Shown here: positions 44,636 through 49,654 of the stretch, piece after piece
How positions within the stretch are numbered: position 1 is the first letter of the stretch
Layout: every line of letters begins with the position of its first letter
Origin: a bacterium
GTDB lineage: Bacteria > SZUA-79 > Acidulodesulfobacterales > Acidulodesulfobacteraceae
Direction: 5' to 3'
Length of the DNA: 64,000 bases
Assembly (NCBI GenBank): GCA_021818985.1
Contig: JAKASO010000001.1
Coordinates: forward strand, 1 to 64,000
Notes under the pieces: generated by a model
Seen by the model: only the letters and a program-made list of their open reading frames with translations
The model's database searches: none
Told to the model about the DNA's origin: nothing
Translations under genes and position numbers: made by a program

Positions 44636-45739
44636 TTACTTAACCTTGGCAAGAAGCTTTTTGACATTGCCCATAACAGAAACAGGCAGAGGCGCAAAAC
44701 CGGTTTTAACGGTATATTTTGCCGCCTGACCGGGACCTAATGCCCAATTCACAAGATCTTTTATTCTCTTTGCCGTATTTGGATTTTTTTGTTTTTTCAT
44801 TATCATCCAAAACTCAAAGTTAGAGTCAGGATACGCATCTTTTGCCGATACATTCCAGACAATTGATTTGTCAAAATCTGTAGGAAACCCTCCCGCTTTT
44901 AAAGCGGAATTTGCCGCGGCAGCGATAGTTTTAACGGAACCAATCACATAATTGCCGGCTTTATTTAACATTGCCGAGCTTGACAGGTGATATTCTATAA
45001 TCCAGCCGAGTCCAACATAACCTATACCACCCTTTGTGCTTTTAACCGCCGCAACCACCGCATCGCTTCCTAAATATCCGCTTCCGACAGGCCAGCTTGG
45101 AGATAAGCTTCTTCCAACCTTATTAGCCCATGTTTTAGAGGTGTCTGTTAAAAGGCTTGTAAAATCAAAAGTAGTTCCGCTCGCATCCGCCCTGTGAACC
45201 ACAAAGATATGCAAATTCGGGAATTTATACCCAGGGTTTAATTTTTTAAATATTGGATTATCCCAGTTTTTAATTTTACCTAAATAGATATCGGCAACCA
45301 ATTTAGGAGTCATTTTAAGATTAATATTGCTGGGTATGCCTGGAATATTGTAAATAACCTGCGCATCGTCGAGAGCAACGGGAACATTGACTAAATCGGG
45401 ATACCTTTTTCTAAACGATTTTGTGAGGTAGGCATCGGAAGCTCCGATTGTGATATTGCCGTCGGCAGCATTCGATATGCCGAAGCCGGATCCTGTGCTA
45501 GCTACGGAAACCGTAACACTAGGATGGAGCTTATGATAGGCTACAGCCCAAACGCTGTTTAAAGGATATAGCATGGTAGAACCGGAAATTGTAATAGTTC
45601 CCGACGGAACGCTTGCTTTAGTGGCAGGCGCTTTAGATTTGGCGCATCCGCTTAATGCTAAAGGCGCCAATAGAATAGACAAAACTGCCAAACTTGCTAA
45701 ACTTTTTTTCAAACCAATTTTTTTTAAATTAAATCTCAT
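44636..45739 (-). CDS. pstS: Phosphate-binding lipoprotein PstS
   Basis: 367 residues. Lipoprotein signal with LSGC and Cys32. The phosphate-binding residues are in GSTMLYPLNSVWA, STGSGFGIS and RADASGTTFDF (Ser/Thr/Asp/Arg contacts typical of PstS). The protein captures phosphate in the periplasm and delivers it to PstC/PstA. Two PHO-box promoters lie upstream (45857-45890, 46077-46110), so induction by phosphate starvation is predicted. The C-terminus ends in NVKKLLAKVK, a normal length. Confidence 0.94.
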   Translation of the reverse strand: MRFNLKKIGLKKSLASLAVLSILLAPLALSGCAKSKAPATKASVPSGTITISGSTMLYPLNSVWAVAYHKLHPSVTVSVASTGSGFGISNAADGNITIGASDAYLTKSFRKRYPDLVNVPVALDDAQVIYNIPGIPSNINLKMTPKLVADIYLGKIKNWDNPIFKKLNPGYKFPNLHIFVVHRADASGTTFDFTSLLTDTSKTWANKVGRSLSPSWPVGSGYLGSDAVVAAVKSTKGGIGYVGLGWIIEYHLSSSAMLNKAGNYVIGSVKTIAAAANSALKAGGFPTDFDKSIVWNVSAKDAYPDSNFEFWMIMKKQKNPNTAKRIKDLVNWALGPGQAAKYTVKTGFAPLPVSVMGNVKKLLAKVK

Positions 45740-45856
45740 AAATTTCTCCTCCTAAATTAAATAAATTGTTTTTTTGCATCTTTAAGTTTAACATCAAAAA
45801 GCAATATTCATTAATTAAAAAAGTAAATAATATAAAATATAATCCTAGCTTTTACA

Positions 45857-45890
45857 ATCATATCAAATAAATATTACAGTTTTATGACAG
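45857..45890 (-). promoter_or_regulatory. PHO-box promoter of pstS (proximal copy)
   Basis: On the minus strand the site reads CTGTCATAAAACTGTAAT (45890-45873), close to the PHO-box consensus of two CTGTCAT-type half-sites 11 bp apart. Ten bases later comes TATGAT (45862-45857), a -10 element at the spacing seen in the E. coli pst promoter. PhoB binding is therefore predicted, about 130 bp upstream of the pstS start. Confidence 0.85.
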
Positions 45891-46076
45891 TTATATTAAA
45901 TTTTTGTAACATTTTGGATAATTTATATTCTTGAGATTATTCTGACCATAAATCTTTAAATTATTATGTTATAATATATACCAACATTCCCACTTAATTT
46001 AACATCAATCAAAAAGCAATATTCATTAATTAAAGTAAATAATATAAAATATAATATTAGCTTTTGTAATTTTGTA

Positions 46077-46110
46077 ATTGTATCAAATAAATATTACAGT
46101 TTTATGATGG
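46077..46110 (-). promoter_or_regulatory. PHO-box promoter of pstS (distal, degenerate copy)
   Basis: Second copy of the same arrangement, CCATCATAAAACTGTAAT (46110-46093), then 10 bases, then TACAAT (46082-46077). The first half-site has lost CTGTCA (now CCATCA), so PhoB binding is likely weaker. It lies about 340 bp upstream of pstS, and 40 bp upstream of the divergent dehydrogenase. Confidence 0.6.
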
Positions 46111-46150
46111 TTATGTTAAATTATAGTGGAACATTATATTGGGAGGCGGT

Positions 46151-47308
46151 ATGCAAGAAAATTTTAGTTTTTTTAATCCCGTAAGAATCTCTTTCGGTAA
46201 AGGAATTCTTAAAAATGTGGGTAAGATTGCCAGAAAATACTCCAATAACGCCCTGATAGTTACCGGCAAAAGTTCGATGCAAAGATCGGGCGTCCTTCAA
46301 AAACTTTTAGATATTTTAAAAGCGGAAGGGGTGGGTTCAACCGTGTATTCCGGTATCACGCCCAATCCGACCTGCATCGAGATAGACGAAGCGGCAAAAA
46401 TGGCAAAAGATTTTAAAACAGGCTTAATAATCGGCCTTGGCGGAGGCAGTCCTTTAGATTCGGCAAAGGCTGTCGCCGTTGCCGCCAAAGGCGACATTCC
46501 TGTATGGGATTATTTAAAGGTCAAAGCCAAAGAAGCCCTTCCCGTCATTACGATAGTTTCGACTTCTGGAACGGGAAGCGAGGTAAACCGCTACTCCGTT
46601 ATGACAAATCCCGCTACGAAAGAAAAGCCCGGCTTTGGCTACGAATGCATGTATCCCAAAGAAGCCATAATTGACCCCGAGATAATGATAAGCATGCCGA
46701 AATATGTTACGGCAAGCACGGGTTTCGATATCTTCGTCCATGTTTTAGAAGCTTTTACCGGTAAAATGAAAAACGCCTTTTCTTCCGCTTATTGTATGCA
46801 AGCTTTTTATTTACTAAAAGATAACCTTATTAATGCTTATAACGAACCGCAAAATTTAGATGCAAGGGGTAATATGGCTTTGGCTTCAGCTCTTGCCGGA
46901 CTTGCAATTGATTTATCCGGCACGGGCATAATACATGCGTTAGAGCATCCGGTATCCGGCAACTATCCGAATATTGCGCACGGAGCGGGTCTTGCTGCGC
47001 TTACCGTCGCATCTTTGAGATACAATATAAGCGGGTGCAAACGGGATTTTATGCTTATAGCGCATCATTTAGGCATTAAAAGAGCGGGGAAAACCGACGA
47101 CGAATACGCCTATTCATTAATCGAAAAGACACAGGAGATTTTAAAGGCGATTGATTTAAATATGAGCTTAAAAGACCTTGGGGTTGAAAAAGAGGCATTA
47201 GGAAAGATCGCAAAAGAAGCATTTGCCACTATGGGCTTTGCAGTTCAAAACAACCCGGAGGAAATTGACGAAAAAGAGGCTCTTAAGCTTTTGGAATTAA
47301 GTTACTGA
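46151..47308 (+). CDS. Iron-containing alcohol dehydrogenase
   Basis: 385 residues from the ATG at 46151. The frame extends to a TTG at 46139, but the GGGAGG at 46141-46146 fits the ATG. Group III alcohol dehydrogenase motifs are IIGLGGGSPLDSAKAVA (NAD-binding), then the iron ligands Asp and His in TGFDIFVHVLEAFTG, HALEHPVSG and IAHGAGLAALT. It oxidises or reduces an alcohol/aldehyde pair. It is divergent from pstS with the PHO-box copies in between, and ends at a strong terminator. Confidence 0.93.
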   Translation: MQENFSFFNPVRISFGKGILKNVGKIARKYSNNALIVTGKSSMQRSGVLQKLLDILKAEGVGSTVYSGITPNPTCIEIDEAAKMAKDFKTGLIIGLGGGSPLDSAKAVAVAAKGDIPVWDYLKVKAKEALPVITIVSTSGTGSEVNRYSVMTNPATKEKPGFGYECMYPKEAIIDPEIMISMPKYVTASTGFDIFVHVLEAFTGKMKNAFSSAYCMQAFYLLKDNLINAYNEPQNLDARGNMALASALAGLAIDLSGTGIIHALEHPVSGNYPNIAHGAGLAALTVASLRYNISGCKRDFMLIAHHLGIKRAGKTDDEYAYSLIEKTQEILKAIDLNMSLKDLGVEKEALGKIAKEAFATMGFAVQNNPEEIDEKEALKLLELSY

Positions 47309-47485: not shown

Positions 47486-49219
47486 TTAGAAATTCCAGAT
47501 AATGGCAGTTCCTAAAGCTGTAACGTTTTTATGCGTCGGGTTATAGATATTGGCGTTAGCAGTTATGCTGGGAGTCCAACCACCACAACTAATGGTGGTT
47601 CCTGCGACAGTGCAAGTCCCTCCGCTAATATTATTAAACGACTCAACACCCGCCCCTGTCCATACATAGGAAGCCCATGCCTGCCAGGCTAAAGTCTTAG
47701 TAAAGTGATGGGTAAAGTTCAGGTCAAATTCGGTTCCGATATCTCTACCGCCGAACATCGGAAAAGTTGTATTGGTAGTGAAACCAGGAACTAACTGCGT
47801 AGAGCTATAAGATGCAGATGTTCTAAGCCATGCCATATACATTAACGATTCTTCTAAAGAATTATTACCGGCAAAATGCTGCGTTAAATCTCCCATAATA
47901 GCCCATTTGTTGGCAAGATTGCTCCCTAATGCCGGACCGTAAATATCACTTGTGCCGAGAGTAGCCATTTGAATCGGCTGCCAGTTGCTTCCTAAAACAT
48001 CGCCAAAGAGCGTCCTTGTATTCTGGATCATAGAGTAATATGTCATATCATAAGTATTGAAACCCATCATACTTGTATCATTCATACTGTCCGCCATGGG
48101 AGAGCCTATTCCGATTTTAAGACCCGCCGACATAGGGATAGAAGTAGGAAGCATCGTCGAACCGGTCAGATAAATGTCATAAGAATGAATTTGGGTTTTG
48201 CCGGGACCTATACCGTTAATAAAGACCCCTCTACCAGTGTTTGCCACATAATTTGCAGGAATTACATTACCAGCAAAATAATCAAGTTCTCCCGCGATCT
48301 TCGTTCCGGCATTTGCATAAGTTGCCGAAAGACCGCCAAATGTTATATTAGCAGAAGGTGCAAATCCACCGTTTTCAGTCGTTGGAGTAGTATTAAATTG
48401 GCTTAAATGAGCCTCCGTAAGCCATAAACTAAACGACATGTTCATTACCGGCTTTAATGTCATAAGTTCAAGAGTCGGTATGGTTCCCATCTGAATATGA
48501 GTATAGTAGTAAGAGGCAGGAGGATAAACAACAGCCGGGGAAGTTGTGTAAGGTAAGACGGTCCCGCTCGGCGGCGCAACGGTTTCATTTCCGAACAGCA
48601 CTCCAAGAAACACACCAAGATCCGCTGTCTGAAAAGGCAGAAAATCACCTAAACCATCCGCCTCAGTATTAACTGCCACACCCATGCCGAACTTAACGGG
48701 CATACGGCCCACCATCCACATGCCTGCCGGCGTAACTAAACGAAGATAAGCCTCCCGCAAACCGAATGTGTTAAAATCATGGTTAAAGCCGATAGGCGCA
48801 GGATTATAACCCAAGGTGTACCAACCGTTAGTTCCGTAACCAGTAGTGTTTCCATTGTAATCGTTGGTCAGATCGAACTGCGTCAGAACGCTTACAAGCG
48901 GCATACCCATGCCCGCACTTCCGTAACTGACGGAGGCGGATAGTCTCAACCTCTGTGTAAACGACTGAAAGGTATTATTAGAGGGCAAAACCGGCTCTCC
49001 CTGATAGATACTAGGAACATCACCAAAAAACTGGGACTGATTCTGCGCAAAGAAACCCCTTGCGATATACTGACCGCTTAGGGAAAATGATACGCCCTTT
49101 TTCTTTGCCTGCGAAGCGGCAAACGAGGGCATAGTTAAAAACATGATCAAAAAACCGGCTAACGCTATCGTAAGCGCCGCCAGCTTTGAATTGAAAGAAA
49201 AGGATTTTTTGCTTCTCAT
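47486..49219 (-). CDS. Outer-membrane porin-like beta-barrel protein
   Basis: 577 residues from the ATG at 49219, which has a GGAGG 8 bases upstream; an earlier ATG at 49234 lacks one. Signal peptide of about 35 residues ends at SFA|A. The mature protein is rich in Gly, Ser, Thr, Asn and aromatic residues, with alternating patterns of a beta-barrel, and ends in Phe (TAIIWNF), the BAM recognition signature. No family name is certain. It could be a general or anion porin. A strong promoter lies upstream at 49329-49356. Confidence 0.8.
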   Translation of the reverse strand: MRSKKSFSFNSKLAALTIALAGFLIMFLTMPSFAASQAKKKGVSFSLSGQYIARGFFAQNQSQFFGDVPSIYQGEPVLPSNNTFQSFTQRLRLSASVSYGSAGMGMPLVSVLTQFDLTNDYNGNTTGYGTNGWYTLGYNPAPIGFNHDFNTFGLREAYLRLVTPAGMWMVGRMPVKFGMGVAVNTEADGLGDFLPFQTADLGVFLGVLFGNETVAPPSGTVLPYTTSPAVVYPPASYYYTHIQMGTIPTLELMTLKPVMNMSFSLWLTEAHLSQFNTTPTTENGGFAPSANITFGGLSATYANAGTKIAGELDYFAGNVIPANYVANTGRGVFINGIGPGKTQIHSYDIYLTGSTMLPTSIPMSAGLKIGIGSPMADSMNDTSMMGFNTYDMTYYSMIQNTRTLFGDVLGSNWQPIQMATLGTSDIYGPALGSNLANKWAIMGDLTQHFAGNNSLEESLMYMAWLRTSASYSSTQLVPGFTTNTTFPMFGGRDIGTEFDLNFTHHFTKTLAWQAWASYVWTGAGVESFNNISGGTCTVAGTTISCGGWTPSITANANIYNPTHKNVTALGTAIIWNF

Positions 49220-49654
49220 CTTTACTTCCTCCATTTTAGAATTTTAGTTTAAATTTCAATCTTCAAATCTTCAAAAAAATTATTTAGTTACTAATTTCAG
49301 TTATCCGTTTAAATTTACTTTTTAAATAATTATCACAATATTGGATAAGATGTCAAGCTTTTTTATTAAATTTTTTTAAAATTTTAAAATTTATTATCTT
49401 AATATTTTTATTTATCTATATAATATATATAAAATATATATAATATATATTTCTATATGATATTTCTATATAAATTATGCTTATGTAAACTACCTCATTA
49501 TCTCTTAATTATCTAAATAACGTTCAAAGTTTATTTTAACCGCAATATATGCGTCTATATACATAATATACATAATATATATTATATATATTATATTTTA
49601 TTTAATAATTATTTAATATCTATGTTATCTTAATATCATTTAATTAGGGCATTG
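49220..49654. other. AT-rich intergenic region between porin and lpxC
   Basis: About 435 bp with long runs of alternating TA (49420-49480 and 49560-49615). The porin promoter at 49329-49356 is the only clear element. No ORF is supported. Confidence 0.65.
49329..49356 (-). promoter_or_regulatory. Probable sigma-70 promoter of the porin gene
   Basis: TTGACA at 49356-49351, a 16-bp spacer, and GATAAT at 49334-49329 (one mismatch to TATAAT) with a preceding TG at the extended -10 position. A leader of about 100 bases would follow. Confidence 0.65.

Follow-up and report, generated by a model that had tools for sequence, protein, structure and literature searches.

Duplication of a putative PHO-type promoter and leader between pstS and a divergent alcohol dehydrogenase gene in a member of the Acidulodesulfobacteraceae

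Genes of the pst locus

The family Acidulodesulfobacteraceae belongs to the acid-mine lineage called Candidatus Acidulodesulfobacterales. In the window (the whole stretch of 64,000 nucleotides that was analyzed), the first gene of a pst operon, pstS (44636..45739, minus strand), matches NCBIfam TIGR00975 with 266.3 bits (cut-off 205) and Pfam PF12849, and is followed on the same strand by two permease genes and by pstB and phoU, all recognized by Pfam; phoU also matches TIGR02135 with 149.6 bits (cut-off 130.25). Divergent from pstS is the gene of an iron-containing alcohol dehydrogenase (ADH; 46151..47308, plus strand; PF00465, 166 bits; PF25137, 141.3 bits), which is 385 codons long counted from its ATG and which the program-made list of open reading frames begins at TTG 46139; 16 NCBIfam models match the protein, every one below its own cut-off. 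The first-pass annotation of this DNA had implied just such an arrangement of a pst operon and a divergent iron ADH, and the Pfam and NCBIfam matches agree with it. Beyond the ADH gene, 47486-49234 (minus strand) encodes a large probable outer-membrane protein that has no Pfam or NCBIfam match; by eye, a protein end similar to this product lies upstream of pstS in one relative (L012). The available passages of a paper on the order Acidulodesulfobacterales (PMC6776010) mention pstSCAB and do not contain the phrase Pho regulon.

A direct repeat upstream of pstS

Gapped local alignment of the pstS/ADH intergenic region identifies a direct repeat of 45782-45917 (136 bp) and 45994-46142 (149 bp), in which 122 of 132 aligned bases are identical, with 10 mismatches and several indels; its score of 91 compares with 27.1 +/- 3.6 (maximum 41.5) for 2000 dinucleotide shuffles. 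A same-direction repeat had already been recognized here, with limits (45787-45900 and 45998-46120) that leave the block some 20-30 bases short. The proximal copy, read on the minus strand, comprises the pst leader, a -10 element and a PHO array; the distal copy, also on the minus strand, lies within the predicted ADH leader, antisense to ADH. The copying may have proceeded either by tandem duplication of approximately 212 bp with subsequent loss of the second spacer, or by direct insertion of a copy. This duplication of a putatively PHO-controlled promoter and its leader is real and lineage-specific; as a kind of event it is ordinary, and the place where the copy landed is of interest.

PHO arrays of the two copies

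Each copy contains four half-sites at 11-bp spacing (seven conserved bases plus four) and a -10 element, rather than the one pair of half-sites per copy that was originally described. The half-sites of the proximal array (45872..45911, minus strand) are TGTTACA (45905-45911), TTTAATA (45894-45900), TGTCATA (45883-45889) and TGTAATA (45872-45878), and its -10 element, TATGAT (45857..45862, minus strand), is 9 bases from the last half-site (10 in the register of the first-pass annotation) and matches in position the -10 element of the aligned relatives. The distal array (46092..46131, minus strand) consists of TTCCACT (46125-46131), TTTAACA (46114-46120), CATCATA (46103-46109) and TGTAATA (46092-46098), followed at the same spacing by TACAAT (46077..46082, minus strand) as the -10 element; TTCCACT and CATCATA are broken and the other two half-sites are good. 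With a weight matrix built from relatives, which themselves score 41.2-58.1 bits when each is left out in turn, the proximal array scores 46.2 bits and the distal array 20.2 bits, and the best score in the 64-kb window outside the duplicated block is 0.02 bit. The proximal array, in the copy earlier described as near perfect, is intact; the distal copy is the more eroded, as had been said, with two of its four half-sites broken instead of one of two.

Arrays and regulator in the genome and the family

The family was represented by 29 relatives, of which 24 have a pstS match and 23 are readable at this locus, the match in G017 being a fragment at a contig end; the relatives left out for want of a pstS match are G012, G013, G025, G028 and G029. 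One array is found upstream of pstS in 23 of 23 readable relatives, most commonly with half-sites of the form TGTTACAAAAATTTAACATAAATGTAATAAAATTGTAACA, and in most of them a -10 element follows after 9-10 bases. The alignment (A1) contains 22 of the 23, excluding L015, which has six half-sites in another register and was kept for scoring; all 22 have four units at 11-bp steps and a -10 element at a distance of 9 or 10 bases. Counted by eye, five or six tandem half-sites are present upstream of pstS in L015, L017 and L027, which represent one genus. No further array turns up in the 700 bp next to pstS in any of the 23 relatives, where the second-best score is at most -5.6 compared to 21.0 in the window. 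Comparison with relatives, which had been proposed as a check, thus upholds the class of array and finds the second copy nowhere else, and the second array is peculiar to this genome among the family genomes compared.

A profile without structure, built from the same 22 relatives with this genome excluded, was used to search the contigs of the genome itself, and yielded 17 matches at E<=10 and five at E<=0.01. The proximal array ranks highest (2.1e-11), followed by arrays on contigs C82 (1.6e-7) and C31 (2.8e-7), the distal array (5.5e-6, over 46077-46124) and an array on C74 (3.6e-4). The proposal that the sites upstream of pstS are PHO-type operators is supported by the first and fourth places that this relatives-only model gives them, and the arrays share with PhoB-type operators the 11-bp direct repeats, the fixed distance to the -10 element and the placement before phosphate genes. 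The distal array, which scores above the candidate on C74, may well bind the regulator. One response regulator has the PhoB model TIGR02154 as its best family match (257.3 bits, below the cut-off of 296.2) and matches DNA-binding-domain chains of Escherichia coli PhoB, such as 1gxp, at 1.3e-23. No partner kinase is present in the examined neighborhood of its gene, which purine genes (named by eye) adjoin; orthologs are encoded in 21 of 30 family genomes including this one (E<=1e-40). This PhoB-like protein is a candidate for the regulator that would bind the arrays.

Ten proteins encoded behind arrays, nine from relatives and UppP/BacA from this genome, were scanned with Pfam. Those of the relatives include a Ppx/GppA phosphatase, a phosphoesterase, an MFS transporter, a TonB-dependent receptor, an outer-membrane efflux protein and one protein with a zinc ribbon only; three have no Pfam match. 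By eye, several of 20 array loci begin with near-identical MFS transporters or similar porin-like proteins. Against the five matches to the array model that this genome has at E<=0.01, relatives have as many as 18, and some of their arrays cluster on one contig as if in a phosphate-gene island (for example G018:C157, G008:C110 and G015:C20).

Three further arrays of this genome were located. The strong array on C82 (C82:40262-40312, minus strand; L006:2655-2825, minus strand) is followed by a -10 element and then by a 94-nt stretch with a strong hairpin and a run of eight T at its end, and the likely start of uppP/bacA lies about 330 bases further on; the 94-nt stretch is a candidate for a phosphate-controlled small RNA with a CCUCC motif, and its BLAST matches in 30 family genomes are essentially confined to the array part. 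The array on C31 (C31:1860-1914, minus strand; L007) has no evident gene behind it. The short array on C74 (C74:56907-56955, plus strand; L008:3520-3777) precedes an unnamed open frame of approximately 86 codons, and a selenocysteine tRNA gene (69 bits) is located at L008:5085-5176 (minus strand).

The promoter and leader of the alcohol dehydrogenase gene

A probable extended -10 element of ADH, TATGTTATAAT (45965..45975, plus strand), is located between the two copies; when the 239-bp spacer is shuffled with its dinucleotides preserved, 1.4% of the shuffled sequences contain the pattern T[AG]TGNTATAAT. A divergent ADH gene faces the single array in 17 of 23 relatives (scored by script), and the interval from array to ADH contains TGNTATAAT in 13 of these 17, GCATATAAT in two and neither in the remaining two. 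The distance from the -10 element (TATAAT) to the ATG of ADH is 175 nt in the window versus 30-94 nt in the 15 relatives that allowed its measurement; subtraction of the 149-bp distal block leaves 26 nt, little less than the shortest distance among the relatives (30 nt). ADH transcription probably starts from the TATGTTATAAT element, and since this element is upstream of the distal copy, the copy would lie inside the ADH leader in antisense orientation and appears to be an insertion into that leader. The first-pass annotation put the distal copy in front of the divergent ADH gene, a placement to be corrected insofar as the copy would follow the ADH promoter. The suggestion that the copy could bring ADH under the influence of phosphate for the first time is not supported, since the divergent ADH gene and a single array already face each other in 17 of the 23 relatives; the linkage of ADH and array is thus ancestral and older than the duplication. 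The array opposite the ADH gene precedes other genes in G012 and G017, where the ADH is a close one (75% identity), a phosphoesterase gene being the partner in G012; in four genomes, more distant ADH genes located elsewhere (L086-L089, 65-67% identity) have no array, by eye, in the 260 bp upstream. In G003 (L031), no more than 32 bp, without a -10 element, separate the array from the start of ADH, and transcription of ADH may begin inside the array.

Age and decay of the distal copy

The third unit of both copies derives from TGTCATA, with C as its fourth base, where 22 of 22 aligned relatives have A; this C, common to both copies and absent from the aligned relatives, indicates that the copying took place after the lineage had split off and is, on the scale of the family, a recent event. 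The copies differ at eight positions of the array (ungapped), and the base found in the relatives is that of the proximal copy at seven of them and that of the distal copy at one, a small count of events that are not independent, which does not amount to a test and of which some may be due to a 2-bp insertion. Because the seven-to-one count fits a weaker constraint on the distal copy, a weak or relic distal promoter is favored over a widened induction range; residual activity is quite possible, the -10 element and its spacing being kept.

Explanations for the duplication

The explanation that seems best, and which is held with somewhat better than even confidence as a whole, is that pstS and the genes behind it have a PhoB-type promoter of four tandem 11-bp half-sites, the last of them 9 bases from the -10 element, a spacing at which the bound regulator would stand in for the -35 contact. 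A block comprising the array, the -10 element and most of the pst leader would have been copied once, in the same orientation and within this lineage, into the leader of the divergent ADH gene, between its -10 element and its ribosome-binding site. The proximal copy would remain the working promoter and the distal copy would be a weak or decaying auxiliary promoter, two of its four half-sites having been lost; any transcript from it would have to traverse the ADH promoter in antisense on the way to pstS. Several observations speak against parts of this explanation: the -10 element, spacing and two good half-sites kept by the distal copy, the 1.4% frequency of the ADH -10 pattern in shuffles, the sub-cut-off score of the PhoB-like protein, the lack of a kinase gene near it and its occurrence in 21 of 30 family genomes, and the arrangement in G003.

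On the view of the first-pass annotation, that duplicated promoters can widen the induction range, both copies would be working PhoB promoters of pstS with different affinities; this is unlikely. In its favor, the distal copy retains its -10 element, spacing and two half-sites, its array is the fourth best in the genome, and tandem promoters are common in bacteria (PMC8830795). Against two working promoters are the two broken distal half-sites, one of which is next to the -10-proximal site, the presence of a second array in no relative, and the need for a distal transcript to cross both the ADH promoter and the proximal array. It is rather improbable that the distal array acts mainly on ADH, with the regulator bound in the ADH leader blocking or modulating ADH transcription in low phosphate: the position of this array between the probable -10 element and the ribosome-binding site of ADH would suit such a role, and ADH adjoins a PHO array in most relatives and also, where the gene partnered with it is a different one, in G012 and G017. 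Against it, the array of the relatives is on the far side of the ADH -10 element, so that the link needs no distal copy; the ADH genes located elsewhere have no visible array in the 260 bp upstream, and the distal array is weakened.

It is very improbable, though conceivable, that the duplicated leader works as RNA, with the pst and ADH mRNAs forming a duplex through which each influences how the other is translated or degraded. The predicted mRNAs are complementary in their 5' parts over about 60 bases in all with gaps, 27 of them mismatch-free; the predicted duplex has an energy of -64.4 kcal/mol versus -34.8 +/- 4.8 (lowest -49.6) for 300 shuffles, and the co-fold gain is -28.9 versus -6.1 +/- 2.4 for 60 shuffles. 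The copies differ at 2 of 64 positions in the leader and at 8 of 62 in the array, -10 element and spacer. Such pairing follows automatically from the landing site of the copy and proves no function, and conservation cannot support it, the duplication being unique to this genome among those compared. Folded by itself, the ADH leader is only marginally more stable than shuffles (z -1.7; 13 of 200 shuffles do as well), and a structured ADH leader was rejected as a candidate on that z value. It is a very doubtful proposition that the rise of pst mRNA in phosphate starvation could, through the complementary leaders, silence or destabilize the ADH message in trans; if true, it would be a regulatory RNA link born from promoter duplication. 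Least credence is given to the repeat being a product of misassembly or a mobile repeat element. The assembly is a draft of 89 contigs, and an imperfect inverted repeat (45980-46011 paired with 46105-46142), whose score of 17 is equaled in 3 of 2000 shuffles, flanks the distal copy; however, the copies are set apart by mismatches in 10 of 132 columns and by indels, and both are deep in a 169-kb contig. A mobile repeat element would have several copies in the genome, whereas no further copy of the block is present and matches outside the window are limited to 50-55 bp of the array part; the mobile element suggested by the inverted repeat was rejected for this reason and for the absence, by eye, of a target duplication.

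Comparison with known systems

The proposed single copying of a PhoB-type promoter into the ADH leader can be set beside several known systems. The PHO box of E. coli, the operator of PhoB, is similarly placed upstream of pstS with its last unit about one turn from the -10 element, but the unit here is TGTWAYA instead of CTGTCAT, there are four units per promoter (five or six in some relatives), and the regulator is a predicted one. In an excludon, divergent transcripts overlap. The divergent genes of the window would likewise have mRNAs with complementary 5' parts, here as predicted transcripts whose complementarity would stem from the duplicated leader, in trans, and not solely from physical overlap. 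More than two units in tandem are also a feature of the PHO operators of Streptomyces and the SphR boxes of cyanobacteria: the number and organization of units vary among the operators of S. coelicolor (PMC4415409), and three or more tandem boxes are upstream of the pst operons of Synechocystis (PMC1906773). The extra units in those organisms adjoin, whereas here a whole promoter and leader is repeated approximately 220 bp away, across the -10 element of another gene. The native tandem promoters of E. coli (PMC8830795) resemble the present case in that two promoters of the same direction serve one gene; here, both would be copies of one promoter, the upstream one decayed, as read from the sequence. 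A duplicated pst promoter was not found described in the open-licence literature, represented mostly by titles and the beginnings of abstracts.

Implications

The locus would be a tidy case for the study of promoter evolution that calls for no new mechanism. It may serve as an example of what becomes of a whole regulated promoter after duplication, with one copy kept and the other eroding at its half-sites in the leader of a neighboring gene, and from the arrays of the family a clear consensus can be drawn for the putative operator through which this uncultured acid-mine lineage would respond to phosphate.
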